64,000 nucleotides of DNA, taken from positions 868,001-932,000 of the forward strand of contig CP060501.1 of the NCBI GenBank assembly GCA_024760545.1, given 5' to 3'. The position numbers were made by a program, and so were the translations under genes. Of the stretch, positions 32,828 through 44,789 are shown piece after piece; position 1 is the stretch's first letter, and each line of letters starts with the position of its first letter. The DNA is from Nitrospira sp. (GTDB lineage: Bacteria; Nitrospirota; Nitrospiria; Nitrospirales; Nitrospiraceae). The notes under the pieces were generated by a model. It saw nothing but the letters and a program-made list of their open reading frames with translations, was not told the origin of the DNA and searched no databases.

Positions 32828-33175
32828 ATGTTATCGATTCACGCGGACATCTATCTTGATTTGCATTCCAAGGGCAGCCGAGCTTCTCACGACCATGCCG
32901 ACCGAGGAAGCGATTGGGCGGAATCCGAATATCACGGACGGTCGATCAAATTGTGGTCTGCCCAGGCAGATGATGGGACATGGGTCTGTGAATACACCAT
33001 CGTAGAATTCTGGCCAACACGGTCGTTCAGCGAATCGGGATACCCTGTAGGCGACTATCGTACTCGCGACGAGGCGGAAGCGGCAGCACTGGAAGTTGCG
33101 CGCAGTGTCATTGATTCACGCGATCCTGTCAGCGATCCCCTTCAGCTCAAACGGCTCTCTCTCAGCCACAGATGA
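32828..33175 (+). CDS. WxC-family small protein, copy 1
   Basis: A 115-aa protein with a variable N-terminus and the family core of about 70 residues: YHGRSIKLWSAQADDGTWVC, EYTIVEFWPTR, and a closing helix TRDEAEAAALEVARSVIDSR. Six copies of this core occur between 32.8 and 41.7 kb. The conserved plan is Y-x-x-R-x-I, Q-A-D-x-G-T-W-x-C, E/F-x-F, G-x-F/Y-x-T/S-x-x-E-A-x-x-A-A-L, and I-D. Predicted fold is three strands and a C-terminal helix. I recognise no named family. The ATG follows AGGGAGGTGCACC. There is no signal peptide. Confidence 0.7.
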   Translation: MLSIHADIYLDLHSKGSRASHDHADRGSDWAESEYHGRSIKLWSAQADDGTWVCEYTIVEFWPTRSFSESGYPVGDYRTRDEAEAAALEVARSVIDSRDPVSDPLQLKRLSLSHR

Positions 33176-33289
33176 GCCATATACTATCTATCAGGTTAAC
33201 AATTTCAATTTCTTCGAGAGAGCGGCAACGCATCTCCCATTCACATTCGCTCACTCTATACATATGCGAGGCGCCAGGTCATTCCTGAG

Positions 33290-33862
33290 TTAGTACGCAT
33301 TCGCATTGTTCTCACCACGTACACACCAGACGTTGTGACTGTCCGTGACTTTTATGTCGTGCACCATCCCCATGACGAATCCCACATTCCACGCGTGGGT
33401 CGGTTTACCGGCAAACGACGTCGCTGACCAATAGTGGGCAGCCTGCACGTTTACGAAGGGATGGCCCGCCTGTAGAGTGGGGCCCGGTGAGACGGAAGGA
33501 TCTACCAGGCTTGCCAACTCGTGCACCGATGGAAGTCTCCAACCCATACGCCCGCCAATCTTGCGGCTCGTACACTGAAACCGTGCGGTTGTCCAATTCA
33601 CGGTCTTCGTCTCCGGGGATTGTTCCCAGACCAACCCTGTTTCGTTATCCCGCACCGCTGTTCCACCAAAATCTGCCAAGACGGTAAACCGCGCGGTGCC
33701 AGGTAACTTCTTATCCCAGCTTTGTGAGAGACTCGGTTGATCTGTCGGCGAGCGTTGTTCCCCCTCAAGCGCATTGGCAGAATGCCACTCTGCGACAACC
33801 AAACTTCCGAGTATCACCCCTAGGACACCGATACCTCTTATCCATCTGTTGTCGACGTGCAT
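33290..33862 (-). CDS. Exported DUF1566 (Lcl C-terminal-like) protein
   Basis: A 190-aa protein with a signal peptide (IRGIGVLGVILGSLVVAEWH) and a DUF1566 domain: FTVLADFGGTAVRDNETGLV, then WEQSPETKTVNW, WRLPSVHELASLVDPS, HYWSATSF and a C-terminal VWCVRG. These hallmarks (WRLPxxxEL, YWSST-like, VxCVRG) are typical. Members are exported or cell-surface proteins of unclear binding function. It is convergent with the WxC copy 1 gene, 114 bp apart, and divergent from the region holding R5. It appears intact. Confidence 0.75.
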   Translation of the reverse strand: MHVDNRWIRGIGVLGVILGSLVVAEWHSANALEGEQRSPTDQPSLSQSWDKKLPGTARFTVLADFGGTAVRDNETGLVWEQSPETKTVNWTTARFQCTSRKIGGRMGWRLPSVHELASLVDPSVSPGPTLQAGHPFVNVQAAHYWSATSFAGKPTHAWNVGFVMGMVHDIKVTDSHNVWCVRGENNANAY

Positions 33863-33970
33863 GATACTTCCTCCCTCTATCTGGATGGCACAATGGCTTG
33901 GTGATCATGTACCGACCGCGACACCCATCGCCAGCGGACTACTCTATTCCAGGCAGGCGCCATTTGACTA

Positions 33971-34062
33971 GATGCTGCACATCGAATATGGGAACGCAAG
34001 CTTATGCCGGTAGCAGGATACGCCGGTTCAAGAAAATGGCGGGTGTTACTACGGATTTGAGG
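33971..34062 (+). repeat. Island repeat R5
   Basis: GATGCTGCACATCGAATATG, CTTATGCCGGTAGCAGGATA, CGCCGGTTCAAGAAAATGGC, then GGGTGTTACTACGG. It is the closest relative of R4, with the end-repeat-like tail retained. Confidence 0.6.
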
Positions 34063-34244
34063 GGAACGACAAAATGGAGTGAATAATCAGGTCTGCGTGC
34101 TTCAACTTTCAGTAGTTTTACTGTCAAAAATACAGTCTGTCCCTCATGGTTGGAGATAGTCGTCTCTTGTAGAGTTAACCAACCCAGTTAGCCGATCAAC
34201 GGTAGCGAGATACGGCACTTGGCCTGCGAACAAGGGAGATGACC

Positions 34245-34499
34245 ATGGAATACTATAAGCAGCGAAGGATCGACGTGGCCCCCGTACGACAAGCGAATGG
34301 GACCTGGCATTGCCCGTATATGATTATTGAATCCAGACAAACCTGTTGGGGATGCCAGACAGGATGCCTCGATGGCAACTTCTCCTCCCGCAAGGAGGCC
34401 ACAACGGCAGCCCTGAAAGAGGCAAAACGTAGGGTCGATGCACTCGAACGATTTGCACCACCGCCTAAGGGTTCTCGCAGACTGAACGTGATCCACTGA
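34245..34499 (+). CDS. WxC-family small protein, copy 2
   Basis: An 84-aa protein: YYKQRRIDVAPVRQANGTWH, CPYMIIESRQTCWGCQTG, then FSSRKEATTAALKEAKRRVD. An extra CWGC pair, shared with copy 5, could bind metal together with the WxC cysteine. It is nearly identical to copy 5 at 39734-39991, which lies in the opposite orientation, so one is a recent duplicate. ATG at 34245 follows AAGGGAGA; an ATG two codons earlier is possible. It lies alone between repeats R5 and R6, as a one-gene unit. Confidence 0.7.
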   Translation: MEYYKQRRIDVAPVRQANGTWHCPYMIIESRQTCWGCQTGCLDGNFSSRKEATTAALKEAKRRVDALERFAPPPKGSRRLNVIH

Positions 34500-34651
34500 T
34501 GCGAGGTCAAGACGAGACCTCGGCCGAGGAGCGATGCACGAGGCAACGGGCATGAGCCGGCTCCTCAACCTGTGCCAGGAGGGCCGTCTCCCTACGTCTC
34601 ATAAGCCCAGACAGTGAAACAGTTTCATAACTTCCTCCCCACCCTTCTGGC

Positions 34652-34735
34652 CTGGTGTTGCATCCCTTAATAGAGTCCTCAGCTTATGACGTCGGCAGAG
34701 TGCGCCCATCATGCCAGGTGGGCTGATTGTTGCTA
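34652..34735 (+). repeat. Island repeat R6
   Basis: CCTGGTGTTGCATCCCTTAA, TAGAGTCCTCAGCTTATGAC, GTCGGCAGAGTGCGCCCATC. A CT-rich lead (CTTCCTCCCCACCCTTCTGG) precedes it, as in R1 and R2. Confidence 0.5.
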
Positions 34736-34894
34736 CTCAAGCAACAGTCCATGGGCAATTGCTGATGGATAAGCAACAGCGAGCCTTCTGCTTCTTATCG
34801 TACGCGTGAGTTTCTGAGACTTTCCGCATCCATGCTTCAATCAGCCACTGGCATGCTCTCTGCCCTTCTGGATCACGTACCTGAGGGGAGACCA

Positions 34895-35122
34895 ATGTCG
34901 GACTATACGAAACGCTGGATCGAGTTGAGACGCTGGGAACGGCAAGCGGATGGAACCTGGAACTGCCACTATGTCATTTTTGAGTTTGGAACCCGAGCAT
35001 GGACGTGCAAGAAAGGATGTCCTGACGGCACCTTCAAAACCCCGGAAGAGGCAGAAGTCGCCGCGCTGACACAGGCCCAACAGATCATCGATTCCCTTCA
35101 CACCTCTGTCGCAGGTCTATAG
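34895..35122 (+). CDS. WxC-family small protein, copy 3
   Basis: A 75-aa protein that is almost the bare family core: YTKRWIELRRWERQADGTWN, CHYVIFEFGTRAWTCKKG, then FKTPEEAEVAALTQAQQIID. The ATG at 34895 is preceded by GAGGGGAGACCA; longer in-frame readings lack a start signal. It has an additional Cys pair (WTCKKGC) in place of the CWGC of copies 2 and 5, so a second cysteine site is kept in three of the six copies. It follows repeat R6. Confidence 0.7.
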   Translation: MSDYTKRWIELRRWERQADGTWNCHYVIFEFGTRAWTCKKGCPDGTFKTPEEAEVAALTQAQQIIDSLHTSVAGL

Positions 35123-35553
35123 AAACGCCATGTCTCTTGGAAGTCTCCCAAAGGTGAGACAGATCCCAGATCGCCTCTGCACCTGGTGCAACATACTCAT
35201 GAAGAAACGGCTGATCGGCGGTGAGCACTACGTCCATTACACTTGCCCGAAATGCATCTTCCAGCACACGAGTCGACTGAGCGCCAAACCCTAGCCTACA
35301 CGCCGCGCATCATGAGACGAGCGGTTCTGTCCGCACGTCCATCTACGGATCGATGTCATACCTCGGCAGGTTCGCATGGCGATCGATGCAGAATGATGAG
35401 GGAACAGAAGCCATGGAATGTCTTAACTACATTGCTTGAATTGGACCATGCAGTTTCTTGATACACACGATCGCATCGTCATCTCTGCCATAGACCACCG
35501 GGTATTCTCTCATCGCGGGTAAAGGTCGGTCAGCGGTAGACAGGGGAGAGGTC
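35123..35553. other. Gap with one possible degraded frame
   Basis: About 430 bp. On the minus strand a frame ending at 35085 reads AQSTRVLEDAFRASVMDVVL and on to PFLHEYVAPGAEAIWDL, protein-like but without a start and cut by stops; it may be the tail of a lost gene. The right end carries GGGGAGAG, the site of the next gene. Confidence 0.3.
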
Positions 35554-35742
35554 ATGGAAAACATCGTCCAGGTGAATCAGGACCTCTATCTCAACATGGT
35601 GGAGGCGGTGAAGATCGAGGCCCACGGGAAGAGCTTCCGTATCTCAATCCGGAACGGCAATGGGTCCCTGACTGAGTATTACTGCCATCCCGAAGCGCCG
35701 GGCTATGAGAAACTAAAAACCCTCTTAGCAAATGCTAAATAA
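35554..35742 (+). CDS. Small hypothetical protein (62 aa)
   Basis: The ATG follows ACAGGGGAGAGGTC, a good site. The product MENIVQVNQDLYLNMVEAVK continues with alternating strand-like segments (SFRISIRNGNGSLTEYYCHP) and ends in a short helix. It looks like a compact beta protein of about three strands; there are no motifs. It is not related to the WxC proteins by eye. It lies between WxC copy 3 and repeat R7 on the plus strand. Confidence 0.55.
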   Translation: MENIVQVNQDLYLNMVEAVKIEAHGKSFRISIRNGNGSLTEYYCHPEAPGYEKLKTLLANAK

Positions 35743-35845
35743 CGGCGAGGCTCTTTATGTGACCAACTCAGGGAAGGTCGATGACAGTAGGTTCGCCACC
35801 CTCAGACACTGAAGCAACTTCACCACGTCCTACCCGCCTTTTCTC

Positions 35846-35905
35846 CTGATGCTGCAAAGCGGATACGGGTTCCTTGCCTAAATCTTTGGGGGCGCCGCTT
35901 CGATT
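35846..35905 (+). repeat. Island repeat R7
   Basis: TGATGCTGCAAAGCGGATAC with GGGTTCCTTGCCTA; the lead CGTCCTACCCGCCTTTTCTC matches those of R1 and R2. Its distal half is lost or overlaps the following lipoprotein gene. Confidence 0.5.
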
Positions 35906-35920
35906 GTTTAGGCCACACGC

Positions 35921-36319
35921 CTACTTGTTGCCGGCTCCAGGCATTCTACTCGATGAACCTGTGCTGTTCGAGTCTGATCCGAAGCTAAATGTGGATTCTC
36001 CCATCCTCACTGTAGATGTGGTATTAGTCGACCGCCTGGGTTTCGGAGTGCCCGTTTTGATATCGAGTACGTCTGGCAATCCACCGACAGTAGCGAGACC
36101 GTTGATCCTGCCTCCCTCGCCCACTATTTGAGGATGGGGCTCGATGGAGCCGTTCGCATCAATGTCTGTGTACACGCCTGTGAGACTGTTTGATTCACTG
36201 GCCAAGATGCTCTCGGAGGGAGTATCCCCTTTTGGTTGGTCTATCATTAAGGAGCAGCCCGCGTTGTAGAGAATTCCGCTCGCCATCACCATATAGGCGC
36301 ACATTTTTCTAATCGTCAT
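35921..36319 (-). CDS. Small lipoprotein of unknown function
   Basis: A 132-aa protein with a lipoprotein signal: MCAYMVMASGILYNAGCS, with Cys in the lipobox. The mature part is Ser/Thr/Gly-rich and low in hydrophobic residues (SLTGVYTDIDANGSIEPHPQ; SFSFGSD-like near the end), likely disordered or extended in the periplasm. No domain is recognised. On the minus strand CATAATCGTCTCCTTCC places GGAAGGAGACGATT before the ATG, a strong site. It is divergent from the next gene (36581). Confidence 0.65.
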   Translation of the reverse strand: MTIRKMCAYMVMASGILYNAGCSLMIDQPKGDTPSESILASESNSLTGVYTDIDANGSIEPHPQIVGEGGRINGLATVGGLPDVLDIKTGTPKPRRSTNTTSTVRMGESTFSFGSDSNSTGSSSRMPGAGNK

Positions 36320-36580
36320 AATCGTCTCCTTCCTGCTAGTTACATGTGACCAACCGACGCTCCATGTTGAACACCCTGATCATATCGTAGCTACGCGTGA
36401 GGAACTTCTATACTAGGGAAACACATAGGGAGTCCATGGCTATGGCTTGAAGTTCGACCTGGCGGGAGCAGCCTCAGGGTTCTGGATTTCTCTGTACGAA
36501 AACTAGGAAGCTGCCCAGCTCATGGTTACCTCTTGGAAAGGTACAGTAATCAACAACGACCAACATAACCAGGAGGTACC

Positions 36581-36991
36581 ATGATTTTCACTTCAGCCGG
36601 CCTTCCAACCAATACATTAATGTTTCTAGGACTCGCCACCATCTTACAGGTTGGTTGTGTAGGATCTCGAGAGGAGGGGAAAACGGTGGGAAGCCCATGC
36701 GACATATCACCTGGGAAAAATGCGATGCAAGCGGAACACAATGCGGTGCGTAAGAGCCATATGCTTTTTGGTGAAGTACTCCGCGTGGACGGTACAACCT
36801 ATGTCCTGAAAGATGAAGATGGCAAAGAAGTGAACGTACTGACCGATGAGACAACTGAGAAACCTCCTATTAACAAAGGAGACCGCATTACGGCAAATGT
36901 TGACAATCTGAATCATGCGCTGTGGATTCGAGCGAACAGAGGGACCGATCGCCGAACTGAACATGCCTCAGCTGACTGCAATCCAAATTAG
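36581..36991 (+). CDS. Small exported protein with beta-barrel-like domain
   Basis: A 136-aa protein. It begins with a hydrophobic segment ending in LQVGCVG, a plausible lipobox. The C-terminal part is a short beta domain: FGEVLRVDGTTYVLKDEDGK, EVNVLTDETTEKP, GDRITANVDNLNHALWI. This fits the small OB/SH3-like barrels of DUF5666-type periplasmic proteins, by inference. AGGAGGTACC precedes the ATG. It stands alone between the divergent lipoprotein gene and repeat R8. Confidence 0.6.
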   Translation: MIFTSAGLPTNTLMFLGLATILQVGCVGSREEGKTVGSPCDISPGKNAMQAEHNAVRKSHMLFGEVLRVDGTTYVLKDEDGKEVNVLTDETTEKPPINKGDRITANVDNLNHALWIRANRGTDRRTEHASADCNPN

Positions 36992-37009
36992 AATACGTCT
37001 CCCTTTTCT

Positions 37010-37074
37010 CAGGATGCCGCAAATCGAATACGGGACCTAACCCCCATGCCGGTGCAGCGCCTGGACTACCCGGA
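37010..37074 (+). repeat. Island repeat R8
   Basis: AGGATGCCGCAAATCGAATA, CGGGACCTAACCCCCATGCC, GGTGCAGCGCCTGGACTACC. It is aligned with R5 and R7 and has the CT-rich lead CGTCTCCCTTTTCTC. Confidence 0.5.
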
Positions 37075-37335
37075 GGAAAACGCTGGACGCTTTCCCTGGG
37101 GCCATGGGTCTTTCGGTACCCCTATGCGCCAGAAAGGAGGCTTCGGTAAAATTTAACCCCTGTCCGACGTGACACCCGGCTTGCGATCTGGCATGATAAA
37201 CCCATGCCGAATCAAAGCCCAAACCCAAACCGAAGAAACTTCAAGGCAAGAGCCCATCCGACCCCATGAAGCTTGCCCGCCTAAAGCATTAACGCATATA
37301 CTGGACCCATTGAGTATCCTTATCACTGTCTGCGA

Positions 37336-38043
37336 ATGAAACCGTCGTGGTCTCTCCCAATCCTGCTCTTCATATTCTTTCCATCGTTCAGTGGAGCCTC
37401 GGACTTTACGGGTAAAGTGATCTCCGTCATCGATGGCGACACCTTCGATGTCGAACACGAGCAAGGCGTCGAACGAGTTCGTTTAAATGGGATCGATGCA
37501 CCTGAAAAGGGGCAACACTTCAGCCAACACGCTATGAAGTTTATCGAAGAAATTACTACGGGGCAGCACCTCACCATCGAAAACAGAGGCCAGGACAAAT
37601 ATGAGCAGACCATCGGCGATGTGTTTCTTGCCGATGGCCGACACTTGAACAAGGAACTCGTGAAGGTTGGTCTAGCCTGGTGGTTCTGCCGGTACTCCGC
37701 CGATACGGAACTGCAACAGCTGGAGGAGGACGCTCGCGAGGCGAAACGCGGGCTCTGGAAAGATCCAGCGCCAACCCCGCCATGGATCTTTCGCAAGCTA
37801 CAGCGAAACCAAGTGCCAGAGGCATCGGATTTCACCTGCCCGCCTTCAGCCTCTCAGCCCATGCCTCAGAACGCGGGCCCTTCGCCCGGAGCTTCCGATG
37901 TCATTGGGAACAGGCGTAGCCACATCTACCACCGCGTCGACTGTCCTGGCTATGATAAGGTCTCCGAGGTCAACCGGATCGCGTTTGTGAGCGTCGAAGC
38001 GGCGGAACAGGCGGGGTATCGGGTCGCCGGAAACTGTCCGTGA
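37336..38043 (+). CDS. Exported thermonuclease-like protein with C-terminal metal-binding module
   Basis: A 235-aa protein: signal peptide (WSLPILLFIFFPSFSGA), SNase domain (about 22-150) and a C-terminal module RSHIYHRVDCPGYDKV of the His/Cys type often fused to secreted nucleases. Active-site residues of the family are present as Asp in VIDGDTFDV, Arg in VRLNGIDAPE and its Asp and Glu. The second catalytic Arg, normally in DKYGRT, is replaced: the sequence reads DKYEQTIGDVF, with Gln in its place. Activity may therefore be low or altered. RKxxGLW-like AKRGLWKDPAPTPPW closes the fold. It is the only unbroken copy of three in the island. Confidence 0.8.
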   Translation: MKPSWSLPILLFIFFPSFSGASDFTGKVISVIDGDTFDVEHEQGVERVRLNGIDAPEKGQHFSQHAMKFIEEITTGQHLTIENRGQDKYEQTIGDVFLADGRHLNKELVKVGLAWWFCRYSADTELQQLEEDAREAKRGLWKDPAPTPPWIFRKLQRNQVPEASDFTCPPSASQPMPQNAGPSPGASDVIGNRRSHIYHRVDCPGYDKVSEVNRIAFVSVEAAEQAGYRVAGNCP

Positions 38044-38284
38044 CATACAATCAGAAACTCGCCGGCGATCATCGGGAGTACGTGAAGAGTCTTCCCTTCC
38101 TGTTCGCGTAAAGTCCGAGCACTGAACCATATTCGGCCCGTACCGTAGCGCCGAATGACACCGCCTTACACGTTTATCCCCGCACTGCATTCCGCAAATG
38201 AAGCGCATGCCTCCGAAGGTAGTGGGTGTGCCGATTGGAGGGAATTGAGAGGGCCACCATCCGTAAGTCTGACTCTTTCCCTGC

Positions 38285-38500
38285 CTACTTCTGTCGTTTC
38301 AAGTGATCGAACAGCTGGTTCACAATATCGCTCCTCAAAGCAATTGGATCTATAGATACGTTGAAAATCTTCTGGCAGAAAGGGCAGACAAGGGCTGCGC
38401 CGTGCCACTTCTTGTCATCATTCTGATGAATAGGTAGACGCTCGATACTTACGTTAATGAGCAATTTATTGCAGTGAGGGCATTTACCTGTATTGATCAT
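38285..38500 (-). CDS. Two-CxxC zinc-ribbon protein
   Basis: A 71-aa protein with CPHCNKLL near the N-terminus and CPFCQKIF after a 30-residue beta hairpin containing WHGAALV, then a C-terminal helix (DIVNQLFDHL). The four cysteines form one zinc ribbon; SIDPIALRSDIV resembles a recurrent mobile-element protein of unknown role. The ATG at 38500 has AAAGGGGACACCGG upstream and is preferred to a longer frame. It stands alone on the minus strand. Confidence 0.7.
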   Translation of the reverse strand: MINTGKCPHCNKLLINVSIERLPIHQNDDKKWHGAALVCPFCQKIFNVSIDPIALRSDIVNQLFDHLKRQK

Positions 38501-38727
38501 TCCGGTGTCCCCTTTGTGTAGGAGGTTCAGGAGAGCACACCAACGACACATTGTTGGAAGGGTTGAATATTACCTAGACGAAATGTAGACTCAGCTCCCC
38601 TCACCTCTCCGGGTAGAAATCCAGTAAATTCAGGAATTTCCTGATTGCGGATGCGCACTGACGATGTTTAGAGTCCAGCAATCCTGTACAGTGTGATCGC
38701 CATCATTGGGCAGAAAGGCTTTCACTC

Positions 38728-39090
38728 ATGGAATCGATGCGAGAGGAGATCCGGCAATTTGTGGTCGCGTCGGAACATTTACTGCGTATTGGGGTGACCG
38801 CTGGCGAATTGAGCAGAAGGGCTCATTGGACAGGAGTGTCCATGGAATGTACGGCTATCGATCCTTCATCAAGGCACGAGTATAAGGGACGCACCATCTC
38901 GCTGTTCGTTAGCCAAGCCGATAATGGAACATGGCGTTGTCGAAATGTGTTTATTCAATTTTCTCCAATAAAATCGGCTTGCGTATCGTCCTATCCTGCA
39001 GGCTCCTTCGCGACACAACAAGAGGCGAAAGCAGCCGCCCTACAAAAGGCCAAACGTCTCATCGATGCCGAGGACCCGTTATCAAGTTGA
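38728..39090 (+). CDS. WxC-family small protein, copy 4, fused to a helical N-terminal domain
   Basis: A 120-aa frame in two parts. Residues 1-35 (MESMREEIRQFVVASEHLLR) are helical and resemble the stand-alone 55-aa protein at 42192 (FRQEIVDFISVSEQIQRVV). From about residue 50 the WxC core follows: YKGRTISLFVSQADNGTWRC, then FATQQEAKAAALQKAKRLID. Either the two are a natural fusion, or translation of the WxC part starts independently at ATG 38841, which has GGACAGGAGTGTCC in front. The first start has a weak site. The core lacks the second cysteine pair. Confidence 0.65.
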   Translation: MESMREEIRQFVVASEHLLRIGVTAGELSRRAHWTGVSMECTAIDPSSRHEYKGRTISLFVSQADNGTWRCRNVFIQFSPIKSACVSSYPAGSFATQQEAKAAALQKAKRLIDAEDPLSS

Positions 39091-39275
39091 GCGGTAACTT
39101 TTCTCTGATAAGCGTGGTCAATCCGGTGCGCCCGTAAGCGCCCTACCCCTGCCAATCTCTGCCCATCCAATGCAACGCCATGTAACATGCCCAATCAGCT
39201 GTATAGCAGGCTGATCTCTACTTTCCGCTGTTTTGGATAAGTTACACTACTCTGAGATTTACTTTGGGTTGCTCT

Positions 39276-39311
39276 GTGTGAACCGCAGGTTGGATCATCT
39301 TGCCAGCTCCA
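39276..39311 (+). repeat. Scar of a tRNA-Thr att core
   Basis: GTGAACCGCAGGTTGGA followed after a short divergent block by TTGCCAGCTCCACACC. It matches both ends of the att core with an internal deletion of about 10 bp and keeps the flanking CACC found after the 26670 copy. It is the rightmost recognisable core. Confidence 0.6.
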
Positions 39312-39461
39312 CACCAACCTTCGGTTAGGCCAGCGGTATATGCCATTGGGCTGTGCCGTATCGATGATGTGAGTGTGCTTGAGAGCGGCTATTTCGCTCA
39401 AGTACGCGGCAATATCACGCTCCACATGTAACAGGAACGATCACCTCACCACTTCTTGCTT

Positions 39462-39550
39462 CAGGAGGTGCATTCCTTAAAAGACTCTCACGCCCATGAT
39501 GTGGAGAGGGCATACCGATTCGCTGGGTAACACGTGCTAATACGGTGTTA
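39462..39550 (+). repeat. Island repeat R9
   Basis: CAGGAGGTGCATTCCTTAAA, AGACTCTCACGCCCATGATG, TGGAGAGGGCATACCGATTC, then CACGTGCTAATACGGTGTTA, a recognisable form of the element 1 end repeat. It lies 150 bp right of the att scar. Confidence 0.55.
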
Positions 39551-39733
39551 GCTGGAGCGACAAGACCGACTGAATTGAGGCCCTAGACAACAGGACAACC
39601 GAACGTATCCGCCTCACTGCCATCGCGCTACGGGCGACAGCCCGCCAACCAGCAGCCGAGGATACACATCCCGGGGTCACGTTCTGGAACTTTCCTCCAG
39701 AAGTGTTCACACCTCCCCAAAGGCGGCGACTCA

Positions 39734-39991
39734 TCAGTGCACTGACCTACTGGATCTGCTGTAACGCTTAGGCGGCAGCGTAAACTGTTCGAGTGCATCG
39801 GCCATATGTTTCGCCTCCTTCAGAGCTGCCATTGTGGCCTCTTTGCGGGACGAGAAACTGCCGTCAGGGCTCCCTGTCTGGCACCCCCAGCAGGTTTGTC
39901 TGAATTCAAAAATGATATACGAACAATGCCACGTTCCATCAGCCTGCCGTACGGGAGCTACGTCGATCCTGCGTTGCTTATATTTCAGCAT
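39734..39991 (-). CDS. WxC-family small protein, copy 5 (inverted)
   Basis: An 85-aa protein: KYKQRRIDVAPVRQADGTWH, CSYIIFEFRQTCWGCQTG, FSSRKEATMAALKEAKHMAD. It differs from copy 2 at only about ten positions in the core and shares its CWGC pair. It is the only copy on the minus strand. The ATG at 39991 has GGAGAGCGACA upstream. The high similarity and opposite orientation point to a recent inverted duplication within the island. Confidence 0.7.
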   Translation of the reverse strand: MLKYKQRRIDVAPVRQADGTWHCSYIIFEFRQTCWGCQTGSPDGSFSSRKEATMAALKEAKHMADALEQFTLPPKRYSRSSRSVH

Positions 39992-40027
39992 TGTCGCTCT
40001 CCATTCACTCACCATTACCTCAGACAT

Positions 40028-40596
40028 CTGAACCTACAAGAAGCCAGAGATGCGCAACAACTAGGCACTGGCTCTGTTTGTGACACTAATTCTGCTGGGC
40101 GCTGAGGCAAATATCTGAATGTCGTCTTTGGTCGTCAGGCTTATCAAGCGCTAACGCGAAAGATTGACCCATTGCGATACTTGTGAAGTGATGACCGCAG
40201 CACATTCTTCTCATCGAGAAATAGACGTATTGGGATCGGGATAGGTCCTCTTTGATTGGCGATTGGTTGGGTGGCTGGGCCTCCTTGTCCGCCGGCTTTA
40301 CTTCCGACGGCGTTCGCCTTGCGAAGATCCGGGAACCCATTGTGGTGGCAACAACGCGCTGGATTGATGGCTAGTCGTCGAAACAAAGTACAACGGGCAG
40401 GTGAGAGCTCTGCTCTTGGTGAATCGGGCGAATGAGGCCATTTCGGTAGGCTGCGTACCACAGTGTACGCCGAGCGTCAGTCTATGTTCAATTGTGGATG
40501 CTGGAACTTTCCAAACCGCTGAAAGTATTGCTGCATCTTAAGGATCAAAATTTGCTCCCCTCCTCGGAGCGTTCATTTTATATCGGAGGAGGGGTT
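40028..40596. other. Gap without recognisable gene
   Basis: About 570 bp. Open frames on the minus strand (40086-40461) are composed of rare-looking, low-complexity basic stretches and have no start signals. ATCGGAGGAGGGGTT at the right end belongs to the next gene. Confidence 0.35.
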
Positions 40597-40854
40597 ATGG
40601 AATGTCCAAAATGTAATGGTATGTTGAGGCTAGAGCGGCTTTCAGACTTCTTTTTTGCATTCTACACTTGGAACTGCATAAATTGTGGTGCCATCATCGA
40701 TCGGACCATCTCCCACAACCGACGCAAAAGTCGGGCGGCAAAGTCTGCCAAGGTTGCCCCCAAGTCATTCGAGACGCTAGCTGTGTGGAAGTCTTTGCAA
40801 ACTTCAGAACGGATTGCGATCCGTTCCACTACTCAGGTCTTTACCACTAAATAA
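40597..40854 (+). CDS. Zinc-ribbon protein (85 aa)
   Basis: CPKCNGMLRLERLSDFFFAF then WNCINCGAIIDRTISHNR gives a four-cysteine zinc ribbon in the first 40 residues, followed by a basic, Ala/Ser-rich tail. Short proteins with MECPKCxGxL and CINCGxIID are common in Nitrospirota and deltaproteobacterial genomes; their role is unknown. The site GGAGGAGGGG precedes the ATG. It is isolated, with gaps of several hundred bases on both sides. Confidence 0.7.
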   Translation: MECPKCNGMLRLERLSDFFFAFYTWNCINCGAIIDRTISHNRRKSRAAKSAKVAPKSFETLAVWKSLQTSERIAIRSTTQVFTTK

Positions 40855-41462
40855 CAAGTCTAGGCACTTTGCAACCATAAGACCCTGACAAGGAGTTATC
40901 GCGGTTTCAAACGGCCTGCACTCATACATCTTCCGTTTGTGTCAGTCACGGTCGAGCCATAGGCTGCTCACTCTTTTTACACTCACTTGATCCCATGGGC
41001 GAAGGACAATCATCATCATAGCGGACTATTTCCCGCTATTGGGAATCGAATCGCCGGTAAGAAGAATTTCAACATCACGCTTCTTCGCTTCCATTCGATA
41101 TAAGCCATCTGAGACTACAGGCTTGCTTCTTTGGCCCTAGTCTCCTTCCCAGGTGGCGAGTACTCATTCTGGAATGTATCGTATTCTAATCAACCCTGGC
41201 GACTTAGCGTGGCGCGGGAGGGGCAGCACTCTTTAGGAACTATAAGAAGACAATGCCGAAGGACAATCGAAGGCCAGTATTCCACCGATCCGCGGGTTCC
41301 TTTTTGTCAGCCTGTGTGCCGATCGAGAAGCCTCTGCCGGAAAAGAACGCACTCACGGAATCGGAAGCGCATTTTATGTATACGGCTATTCTTGGGATTA
41401 CAACGACGGTCGATGTGCGCAGGGAGGCACTGACTAGCGTCCATCAGCCGGAGGAAACGACA
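40855..41462. other. Gap without recognisable gene
   Basis: About 600 bp with no supported ORF. The frame 41253-41462 in front of WxC copy 6 has no start signal and no similarity to the N-termini of the other copies. Confidence 0.35.
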
Positions 41463-41696
41463 ATGACGGGATCAAGCTATGAAGGGCGGTCGATCCAATT
41501 GAGGTCCTGTCAGCAGGACAAGGGAGCATGGATCTGTGAGTACACAATACTTGAACTCGGGCCAACAGGATTGTCGAGGTCGACCGGGCAAGCCACCGGC
41601 AGCTTCTCTACTCGTGAGCAGGCGGAAGCAGCAGCGCTGGAGGTAGCGCGAGGTGAGATCGATGCACGCGGTCCCATCCGAGGACCTCTCAACTGA
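41463..41696 (+). CDS. WxC-family small protein, copy 6
   Basis: A 77-aa protein: YEGRSIQLRSCQQDKGAWIC, EYTILELGPTG, then FSTREQAEAAALEVARGEID. It is closest to copy 1 (YHGRSIKL...EYTIVEF...AAALEVARSVID). Here the T of GTW is replaced by A, and no second cysteine pair is present. The ATG at 41463 follows GGAGGAAACGACA, a strong site. It is the last copy before the right boundary of the island. Confidence 0.7.
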   Translation: MTGSSYEGRSIQLRSCQQDKGAWICEYTILELGPTGLSRSTGQATGSFSTREQAEAAALEVARGEIDARGPIRGPLN

Positions 41697-42191
41697 TCTC
41701 TCGAAGCAGACTTTTCTCTCTTGCTCAACCAAAAACCCAAGCGTCCAGGGAAGTTGACCTTGACAGGAAGTCCTGGCACTTGCCGGAGCTTGTGGTGTTT
41801 AGGAGTATTCCTAGCCTGAAATGATATATCTCGAGTGTAGCATAGCGCATGTCCAAGGATGATTGCGTGGCCTGCGTCCTGATAGAAAAGTCCGCAGCCG
41901 CACTCGAACAAAGAGATGCGGGAGCATGGTTCTTTTGCGGTATGCGAGCTGCTGCATCATCAGGCAGACATGACAGAATGCGTGTGGTCGAGTTGATCTT
42001 TGTAAACCGCGAATCTCACAGCATCATACCCGCCTTCTGCAACTCGGCAATTCTCGCGCGACGAGTAGTGTAGTCCCCTTAAATTCGAGCCGAAGATCTT
42101 GGGGGCCTTGACTGGGCCGGCTGAGAGATTATCTTGAATATCTGAACGCACCACACGCTCAACCCCTCACAACGCATGGAGGTTTGCTCGC
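41697..42191. other. Gap without recognisable gene
   Basis: About 495 bp. It includes TTTGTAAACCGC at 41999-42010, identical to the first 12 bp of the att core but without the rest, so possibly chance. No ORF is supported. Confidence 0.35.
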
Positions 42192-42359
42192 ATGGAAACT
42201 TACATGAACGGCTTCAGACAGGAGATCGTGGACTTTATTTCAGTGAGCGAACAGATACAACGTGTTGTGGCGCGAGGGGAACATCTCACCAAAGACGAGG
42301 CCGGAGTCGTGCGGCTCTGCGCGACTGAATTGCTCAAAAACCTGGCTGAACCACTTTAG
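42192..42359 (+). CDS. Small helical protein (55 aa)
   Basis: The product starts METYMNGFRQEIVDFISVSE and is helical and amphipathic throughout. Its first half matches the N-terminal domain of the frame at 38728 (REEIRQFVVASEHLLR), so a small helical family exists both free and joined to a WxC core. The ATG lies after a weak site. It lies 140 bp left of the hairpin that marks the island end. Confidence 0.5.
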   Translation: METYMNGFRQEIVDFISVSEQIQRVVARGEHLTKDEAGVVRLCATELLKNLAEPL

Positions 42360-42500
42360 GCCGCTATCTTGCTGACCGTCCTGTAAAACAGAATTCTGAC
42401 CAGCCTCCTGCGTGGCAAGATACGCCGACTATTTCGACTTCTCCTTGCACGGACGCGCCCAATCATCGTTCTTGGCCTCATAGCAGCTCGAGGGGAAAGA

Positions 42501-42532
42501 GATTGCTCAGGCCTTCGAGAGCTTGAGCAATC
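42501..42532 (+). repeat. Isolated copy of the att-adjacent hairpin; likely island right edge
   Basis: GATTGCTCAGGCCTTCGAGA GCTTGAGCAATC pairs GATTGCTCA with TGAGCAATC perfectly and is followed by CCCC as in the copy at 21282 (29 of 35 bases alike). No att core follows; chromosomal genes resume 30 bp later. Confidence 0.5.
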
Positions 42533-42562
42533 CCCGACCGGATAAGGGATACCGATATCCGG

Positions 42563-43150
42563 TTACCGTGAAGGGTAACTGTCGATGGGAACCATTAAAT
42601 GGGCATAGGGGGTGCCGGCCCACATGATCCAGGGTCCTCCGTTTTTCGAATCGGTCGGCACATTTTTCAGCAAACCTGCATCCGGGAGCAGAATCATGAG
42701 ATGCGCGCCAACTCCTTCCACCCACTCGTCGCCAGGCTTGGGTTCTGTGGCATAGGGATCGGTGTTGCTCACAGGCCTGTCACCCTGGAGCATATACGCG
42801 ATTCCCACTTGAGTGACGGCGGGCTTCTTCTTATCTTTCAAAGCCTCCCAAAAATTACGCCACGGTTCGTTCATACATATTGAGTCCGTACCGGATGTAT
42901 TGGGATCGTCGGGTACACACGTCCATCCATTGCTGCCTTTGCGAACCACTTGTCCATCCCGACTCATGATCGTTGCATGTTGGGACAGCGACGACGGCGC
43001 GGCGCGTTCCGCCCCCGCCGATTCGGCCGCATGACGTACCACATCACGGCGAGCCCCTCCTTCACCGAGAACCGGCGGCGCCAGTGTGACGGTAGAGGCC
43101 ATGATCAACGTCCCTGCGAGGACAATCATGGATTTCCCATATCGCATCAT
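42563..43150 (-). CDS. Exported protein of unknown function (195 aa)
   Basis: Signal peptide MMRYGKSMIVLAGTLIMAST with cleavage near VLG-EG. The mature part carries ATIMSRDGQVVRKGSNGWTC, CMNEPWRNFWEALKDKKK, VGIAYMLQGDRPVSNTDPYA and HLMILLPDAGLLK. This pattern is typical of exported proteins in Nitrospira and other bacteria that are of unknown function; no catalytic residues are evident. AAGGAGAACTACGT precedes the ATG at 43150. A longer frame upstream is not supported. It lies just outside the island and on the same strand as the GlrR operon, separated from it by a terminator. Confidence 0.7.
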   Translation of the reverse strand: MMRYGKSMIVLAGTLIMASTVTLAPPVLGEGGARRDVVRHAAESAGAERAAPSSLSQHATIMSRDGQVVRKGSNGWTCVPDDPNTSGTDSICMNEPWRNFWEALKDKKKPAVTQVGIAYMLQGDRPVSNTDPYATEPKPGDEWVEGVGAHLMILLPDAGLLKNVPTDSKNGGPWIMWAGTPYAHLMVPIDSYPSR

Positions 43151-43370: not shown

Positions 43371-44789
43371 CTATCGCTCCGCCTCGGTCAAATTTGCTTC
43401 GGTTTCCAGCTCTTCCAGTTCAGAGTCCGATTTTCCCTTCGTCGTGGAGGGGTGAAGGCCGTACTTTCTCAGCATCTTATAAAAATCGGCCCTGTACCTG
43501 CCGGCAAATTGAGCAGCGCGCGAGATATTCCCGCCCGTCAACTGGAGCACATTTTTCAGATAGGTCCGTTCGAATTCTTCTTTGGCTTCCGTGAGCGGTT
43601 TGAGCGGAGACTCGGCCGACACACTGACCGCCGGCAACAAATCCGGCGTCAACATGTCTTGCCGTGACATGACCACGGCCTTTTCAACCACGTTTTCCAG
43701 TTCCCGTACGTTGCCGGGCCAGGGATTGATCATGAGTCGATGGAGTGCGGCGGGCGTGAATCCTTTCACGTCCTTATTGGCTCGTTTCATGCTGAGCTTG
43801 AGGAAATGTTGCGCCAAAAGCGGAATATCGTCGCGGCGATCCCGCAACGGCGGAACGAACAAGGGGACCACGGAAATGCGATAGTACAGATCGTTCCGGA
43901 ACGTCCCGTTCTTCACGGCCTCCCCGAGGTCTTTATTGGTCGCGGCAATGATGCGAACATCGACTTTGACCGAGTTCTCGGATCCCACCTCTCGAATCTC
44001 CCGCTCCTGCACGGCACGCAATAATTTCACCTGCATGGACAGCGGCATCTCGCCGATCTCATCGAGGAACAGCGTGCCGCCGTTGGCCATTTGGAACAAC
44101 CCTCGCTTCGCCCCATGGGCGCTCGTAAAGGCGCCCTTGACATGTCCGAACAGCTCGCTCTCGAACAGCGTTTCGGGTATAGCGGCGCAGTTGAGCGCCA
44201 CGAAGGGACCTTTATTGCGTCGACTATTTGTATGGATGACACGAGCCATCACTTCTTTGCCGGTGCCGGTTTCTCCAAACAGCAAGATGGTGGCGTCTGA
44301 ATCGGCGACCTGCGCGATTTGCTGGAAGAGCCGTTGCATTGCCGGACTTCGCGCCACGACATTCTCGAGTCCGTACAGTTCCTTGACCAACGATTTGAGA
44401 CGCTGAATCTCGCGGCTCATCCGCTGCTGAGCAAGTGCTTTTTCAATGGTGGCCTTGAGTTCCTTGTCATCAAACGGTTTCGTCAGATAGCCGAACGCCC
44501 CTCGTTGCATCGCCTCCACCGCGTTGGGAATACTCCCATGGGCCGTGAGAATAATGACCGGAAGTCCGGGATGACTTCTCAGCAGCTCTTCGGTCACGTC
44601 GAGTCCGTCCTCTCCGCGAAGACGGAGATCGGTAATAGCCAAATTGAACATGGTTTTCTTGGCCTCACCGACCGCATCCTGCCCTGTCGTACAAGGCGTG
44701 ACTGTAAATCCCATGGCGGATAACCGCATCTTCAGCAGATGCAGCAACCCTTCATCGTCGTCGACTACGAGAATATTCTCTTGTTCCAT
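43371..44789 (-). CDS. glrR: GlrR/QseF-like sigma-54-dependent response regulator
   Basis: A 472-aa protein with REC domain (Asp54 in [11 protein letters not shown]), AAA+ domain (Walker A GETGTGKE, Walker [13 protein letters not shown]) and Fis-type HTH. The C-terminal part [20 protein letters not shown] followed by [20 protein letters not shown] is characteristic of GlrR. The sigma-54-contact loop reads GAFTSA instead of GAFTGA. Genes upstream encode a QseG-like lipoprotein and a GlrK-like kinase in the same order as in enterobacteria (glrK, qseG, glrR), which supports the assignment. The ATG at 44789 follows AAGGAACATTGAAT. It should activate sigma-54 genes, in enterobacteria glmY and rpoE, here unknown. 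Confidence 0.88.

Follow-up and report, generated by a model that had tools for sequence, protein, structure and literature searches.

WxC proteins in Nitrospira: an expanded and very probably divergent branch of the CV_2116 domain family

Introduction

The best described system to compare with the proteins analyzed here is CV_2116 (NCBIfam NF046097; Pfam PF21617, CV_2116-like), whose nuclear magnetic resonance (NMR) structure (PDB 2KON) is presented as a monomer with a novel alpha+beta fold made of a four-stranded sheet and a 21-residue C-terminal helix, no function being reported there (PMC3397530). This 2012 paper is the only publication on the family that our searches found, these covering largely literature outside subscription journals. 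Here we analyze a family of small proteins, WxC, encoded by six genes in a 64,000-nucleotide stretch of a Nitrospira sp. genome (GenBank assembly GCA_024760545.1, contig CP060501.1, positions 868,001 to 932,000; hereafter the window, which is the whole stretch). On the evidence of sequence comparison and predicted fold, WxC is very probably a diverged branch of CV_2116 domain proteins, multiplied in this species.

The scaffold of solved fold is known, and what is new is the divergent branch and its species-specific expansion; as far as our searches reach, no lineage-specific "binder library" built on the CV_2116 domain has been described. A domain represented in print by one NMR structure without a function has given rise, in an environmentally important genus of nitrifiers, to a large expansion under selection, which supplies a simple gene set for testing what the domain does, while the fusion of the canonical domain to a cyclic di-GMP (c-di-GMP) receptor domain in relatives offers a functional lead.

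Six WxC genes and their relation to CV_2116

A preliminary description, made from the DNA sequence, had placed six paralogues within 9 kb of the window. All six are real, with open frames and shared alignment columns at the positions given, except that the fourth starts at 38842 and not at 38841:

32828–33175, + strand: WxC copy c03, subfamily C, YxGRxIxL type, 115 amino acids, with a Shine-Dalgarno-like site at the ATG
34245–34499, + strand: WxC copy c04, subfamily A, nearest relative c07 (79% identity, 71 codons)
34895–35122, + strand: WxC copy c05, subfamily B, 75 amino acids, grouping with relatives from four other Nitrospira genomes
38842–39090, + strand: WxC copy c06, subfamily E
39734–39991, − strand: WxC copy c07, subfamily A, inverted
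41463–41696, + strand: WxC copy c08, subfamily C, for which an AlphaFold model was made

Over about 70 residues, 13 alignment columns are identical in all six cores (Y, R, I, G, W, C, G, A, A, A, L, A, D). The core motifs first described hold in the alignment, and the extra Cys pair ascribed to some copies is that of c04, c05 and c07. A Shine-Dalgarno-like sequence lies closely 5' of every one of the six starts, and the weakest window copy still reached E 4.7e-32 in a genome search with the six-row profile, far above chance.

The protein had been called unrecognized, a view that gave way to kinship with CV_2116 on three lines of comparison. CV_2116_dom (NF046097) was the top NCBIfam match for 24 of 34 WxC cores, with a best E of 2.9e-7 that stays under the cut-off. 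In the window's own genome the same model finds eight canonical members above its cut-off, and a profile of such canonical cousins (13 sequences, six from this genome) aligned by hhalign with the 34 cores at 97.3% (E 2.2e-11, 67 columns). Finally, AlphaFold models of c05 and c08 (mean predicted local distance difference test scores, pLDDT, 87.2 and 86.4) agree in showing a sheet and a C-terminal helix; in c08 the strands span residues 2-7, 10-18, 24-33 and 38-44 and the helix 52-70. The strand positions of CV_2116 agree with this model (PMC3397530), and 2KON aligned with it end to end over 70 residues (Z 7.0, root-mean-square deviation 3.7), tied with rows of double-stranded RNA-binding domains (dsRBDs). 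Foldseek with the WxC models gave no match at E<=0.001, and a PDB sequence search with WxC gave no meaningful one.

The two branches agree in length, in strand order and in having a C-terminal helix, and share a Y-x-G-x-x-I start, a Trp in the second strand and an E-A and I-I-D signature in the helix, and their genes occur side by side in the window's genome. In contrast, WxC carries W-x-C, its Cys nearly invariant, at positions that the canonical branch fills with other residues, and an Ala-rich AAAL helix where the latter has xxCIxYG; it occupies 41 places in this genome against eight canonical copies, and was not seen fused to PilZ.

Other known families come less close. DUF6566 (PF20204) resembles WxC in overall pattern and gave weak full-length Pfam matches to 14 of the 34 cores (best E 0.00019). 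HlyU (PF10115, a short family) matched two cores weakly (best E 0.023), while a canonical cousin, at 26.0, falls short of the HlyU cut-off of 27 by no more than one bit. AP2 (three cores, best E 0.038) and Arm-DNA-binding (two cores, best E 0.35) were weak Pfam matches as well, and neither fold is among the structure rows listed, which excludes nothing. The faint resemblance to HicB-type folds first suggested does not extend to kinship: HicB (PF15919) is also a small beta-beta-beta-alpha protein, yet hhalign gave it 0.3% against 97.3% for the CV_2116 cousins, and the 34 cores matched no HicB family in Pfam at E<=1.

Distribution and evolutionary history

When run on the window's genome (4.81 Mb), the six-row profile found 48 places at E<=1, which become 41 after removal of five weak ones (E >=0.138) and of c28, a canonical cousin, and after merging of one frame-shifted pair. 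These 41 places lie round the chromosome, so that the six in the window, correct in themselves, understated the family. Four of the 41 copies are broken (c11, c18, c31 and c35/36). Two-domain tandems occur in three long frames (c00/c01, c38/c39 and c15/c16), and a fourth, c31/c32, is interrupted by a stop.

Across the genus, 38 of 79 Nitrospira genomes gave at least one match to the 34 cores at E<=0.001, part of these being cross-matches to the canonical CV_2116 cousin. The window's genome has 44 such matches and the same-species genome G091 has 39, as opposed to 0 to 10 in all others, in line with the accessory, repeatedly gained family that had been proposed. In the phylum, where scoring was limited to the top 20 candidates of each genome, matches occur in 40 of 295 genomes and seven of 135 genera, and 39 of the 40 belong to the same taxonomic family. 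The named matches are Nitrospira metagenome-assembled genomes, including Nitrospira sp. BO4, which has 99.7% DNA identity to the window over the parts compared and whose contig positions agree with the G091 places. The phage, plasmid and viral collections searched hold no relative.

In a tree of 77 rows and 69 columns, many of whose forks are weak, the canonical cousins form one group (100/99), and the WxC copies of the window's genome are intermixed with those of other genomes, with 12 label changes, at least five of them forced by well supported forks. This mixing indicates that several subfamilies are old and that some were later multiplied in this genome; within the genus Nitrospira, several are older than this species. 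The six window copies fall in four subfamilies (the sister pair c04 and c07; c05; c06; c03 and c08), so the region is a hot spot of different lineages rather than a single local amplification.

Near relatives of the window gene at 42563-43150, the genomes G016 and G024 carry a WxC gene of yet another subfamily, which in G016 is also near relatives of 43371-44789. In three Nitrospira genomes, the WxC genes at the spot adjoining 42563-43150 (window 41463-43150; L098, L107) differ in subfamily. Subfamily A proteins (L007, L044, L047, L048, L049 and relatives) share across species a C-terminal tail of about 40 residues with a Y..R...L.F pattern, which perhaps forms an amphipathic helix. We considered and rejected a fixed-ended cassette or mobile unit: blastn of the flanks gave no constant unit, the duplicated blocks differing in extent (818 bp for c02/c23, 487 bp for c19/c27); integron attC sites were not searched for.

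Selection on the WxC genes

WxC genes are under purifying selection, and neutral decay is ruled out for most copies. The ratio of nonsynonymous to synonymous substitution rates (dN/dS, Nei-Gojobori) ranges from 0.12 to 0.19 for c05 compared with relatives in four other Nitrospira genomes, and finite values among pairs at least 55% identical run from 0.08 to 0.69, the maximum belonging to the recent pair c02/c23. Some nine in ten copies are intact, though many pairs have a dS near or above 0.5; for reference, three genes adjoining the window cluster have a dS of 0.85-1.26 between the window's genome and G016. Consistently, 26 of 34 unbroken copies have a Shine-Dalgarno-like tetramer at one or more in-frame starts, compared with 13% of background start-like triplets, figures that are not strictly comparable since WxC copies offer several candidate starts.

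Among 21 of 561 paralogue pairs (>=60% identity, dS <1.2), core positions have a dN/dS of 0.10 and surface positions one of 0.37, a contrast that is partly built in because core positions were picked from the conservation profile. A selected family, as first envisaged, is what we find, with surfaces that vary over a fixed core; of the selected diversification also proposed, the less constrained surface stands, but dN/dS stays below 1 throughout. Neither neutral decay nor a match to a housekeeping family, the two outcomes that the preliminary description had named as counting against it, occurred.

Possible function

Conservation alternates along the strands of the core (W22, C24, Y26, I28) and follows one side of the helix (A53, A57, A61, I65), and residues 32-40, the beta2-beta3 loop, are its most variable part. 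Trp22 and Cys24 are read as structural because the conserved residues alternate as in a packed core; most likely both are buried and hold the sheet to the helix, and are neither catalytic nor metal-binding. No enzyme-like motif was found in WxC, which is probably a non-enzymatic binding module.

We propose that WxC proteins are stand-alone, single-domain and probably cytosolic proteins of about 70-115 residues, whose domain would consist of three to four antiparallel strands packed on one C-terminal helix, dsRBD-like and with the topology of CV_2116. Dispersed duplication into plastic regions would have multiplied them to about 41 places in this one Nitrospira species, and the outer face of the sheet together with the beta2-beta3 loop, differing from copy to copy, may bind partner proteins. 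Stand-alone binding modules of the CV_2116 branch with diversified surfaces are the best overall explanation, one that we hold at about even probability, with fold and ancestry well supported and the function inferred by us. Of the "binding or inhibitory proteins" suggested at the outset, we accordingly prefer the binding role, while the inhibitory one found no direct support.

The likeliest setting for such modules may be c-di-GMP or similar signaling and stress proteins, to which they would belong as small adaptor or modulator subunits; we propose this because in many Nitrospira a conserved PilZ protein has the canonical domain as its N-terminal half. This fusion was found in ten other Nitrospira genomes:

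L122, 1658–2221, − strand; L126, 1988–2551; and eight further loci: CV_2116-PilZ fusion, with PilZ match

Nine of these proteins are 62-81% identical to the first, and all ten match PilZ and carry RxxxR and DxSxxG, the c-di-GMP motifs of PilZ. By analogy, a link of WxC to c-di-GMP signaling is conceivable and put forward tentatively; that the roughly forty members form a binder repertoire on the CV_2116 scaffold, serving as interchangeable adaptors for c-di-GMP (PilZ) and other signaling proteins, would go further and seems unlikely to us.

Several results weigh against this account. The WxC cores fall under the curated cut-offs of both NF046097 (58 bits; best window core 26.0, another 25.6, best of the 41 places 29.4) and DUF6566 (gathering score 26.7, reached by none of 16 matches in the window's genome), so WxC is not filed as a member of the CV_2116 family. 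The 2KON match lies below Z 8, level with the dsRBD rows, and 2KON is not among the 50 rows listed for the c05 model. No constant partner appears in the neighbor listings of 20 loci in other genomes. No WxC-PilZ fusion was seen, and of the 32 PilZ genes in the window's genome none has a WxC gene within 1.5 kb, so that the c-di-GMP link depends on the canonical cousin. Finally, a dN/dS below 1 needs no diversifying selection.

The expansion could instead be one of hitchhiking, in which proteins of minor cellular role were spread by plastic regions that duplicate and insert segments, alongside other small families. The unequal duplicated blocks, the multi-copy state of neighboring small families (eight intact copies, 14 and four matches), the four broken copies and the relaxed youngest pair c02/c23 (dN/dS 0.69) all agree with this; yet the high proportion of intact copies at such dS, the low dN/dS of the core and the retention of c05-type proteins in four other genomes make it rather unlikely. 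An RNA- or ribosome-binding stress protein, acting like dsRBD or hibernation-factor domains, is suggested by the nearest solved folds, which are mostly dsRBDs (Z 5-7.3) with some protein Y or hibernation-promoting factor (HPF)-type domains, and which share with WxC a beta-sheet and C-terminal helix. However, the dsRBD fold is alpha-beta-beta-beta-alpha and the c05 and c08 models are without the N-terminal helix, and Z values below 8 may reflect merely a common arrangement. The RNA-contact lysines of dsRBDs form KKxAK at the start of the C-terminal helix; in WxC they are not kept, position 50 being R in 19 of 34 cores, 51 E or D in 17 and 54 E in 16, with R/S, E/D and E mostly found there. Isoelectric points from 4.1 to 9.9 leave no common basic surface and argue against one shared nucleic-acid role, so that we regard RNA binding as improbable.

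Orphan antitoxins or immunity proteins, HicB-like or directed against polymorphic toxins and multiplied against many of them, would likewise be small, multi-copy, surface-variable and beta-beta-beta-alpha in shape, and two WxC copies lie directly downstream of a gene for a 62-amino-acid protein and two beside a canonical cousin. We think this improbable as well: besides the negligible hhalign score to HicB, PADLOC defense models gave no match for the 34 cores, most copies are solitary and, as said, no constant partner appears at the 20 loci of other genomes. The one HicB-like match in the window's genome is distant from all WxC copies, and no HicA toxin gene was noticed beside WxC in neighbor listings, which were not scanned gene by gene. 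A place in phage tail-like particles, the role suggested for CV_2116, which sits in a prophage among tail genes (PMC3397530), is very improbable for WxC, given that PHROG gave no usable match, that relatives are absent from the viral and phage records searched and that no tail gene was noticed by eye in the neighbor listings, whose genes were mostly not Pfam-scanned.

Genomic neighborhood

Because the gene caller missed many WxC copies (37 genes matched the profile), the neighbor listings are incomplete. The companion gene next to c05 is:

35554–35742, + strand: gene for a 62-amino-acid protein downstream of c05, without Pfam match, of another small expanded family

This family has eight intact copies in the genome (76-100% identity), several of them near WxC or canonical CV_2116 genes and two directly upstream of a same-strand WxC gene; two of the eight canonical genes lie 58 bp from a same-strand WxC gene. 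Within 1.5 kb of a WxC gene are four of the eight canonical genes and three of the eight 62-amino-acid copies (random mean 0.17 each), odds that overstate a functional link because small genes tend to cluster in shared plastic regions, which random placement ignores.

The genome contains 14 matches, three of them close and the others distant, to a small lipoprotein-like gene at window 36581-36991, which represents a further expanded small family. About 430 bp at window 38167-38598 are missing from the same-species BO4 genome (locus L074), where a short common string marks the junction, and a zinc-ribbon-like open reading frame (38285-38551, − strand) sits inside this stretch.

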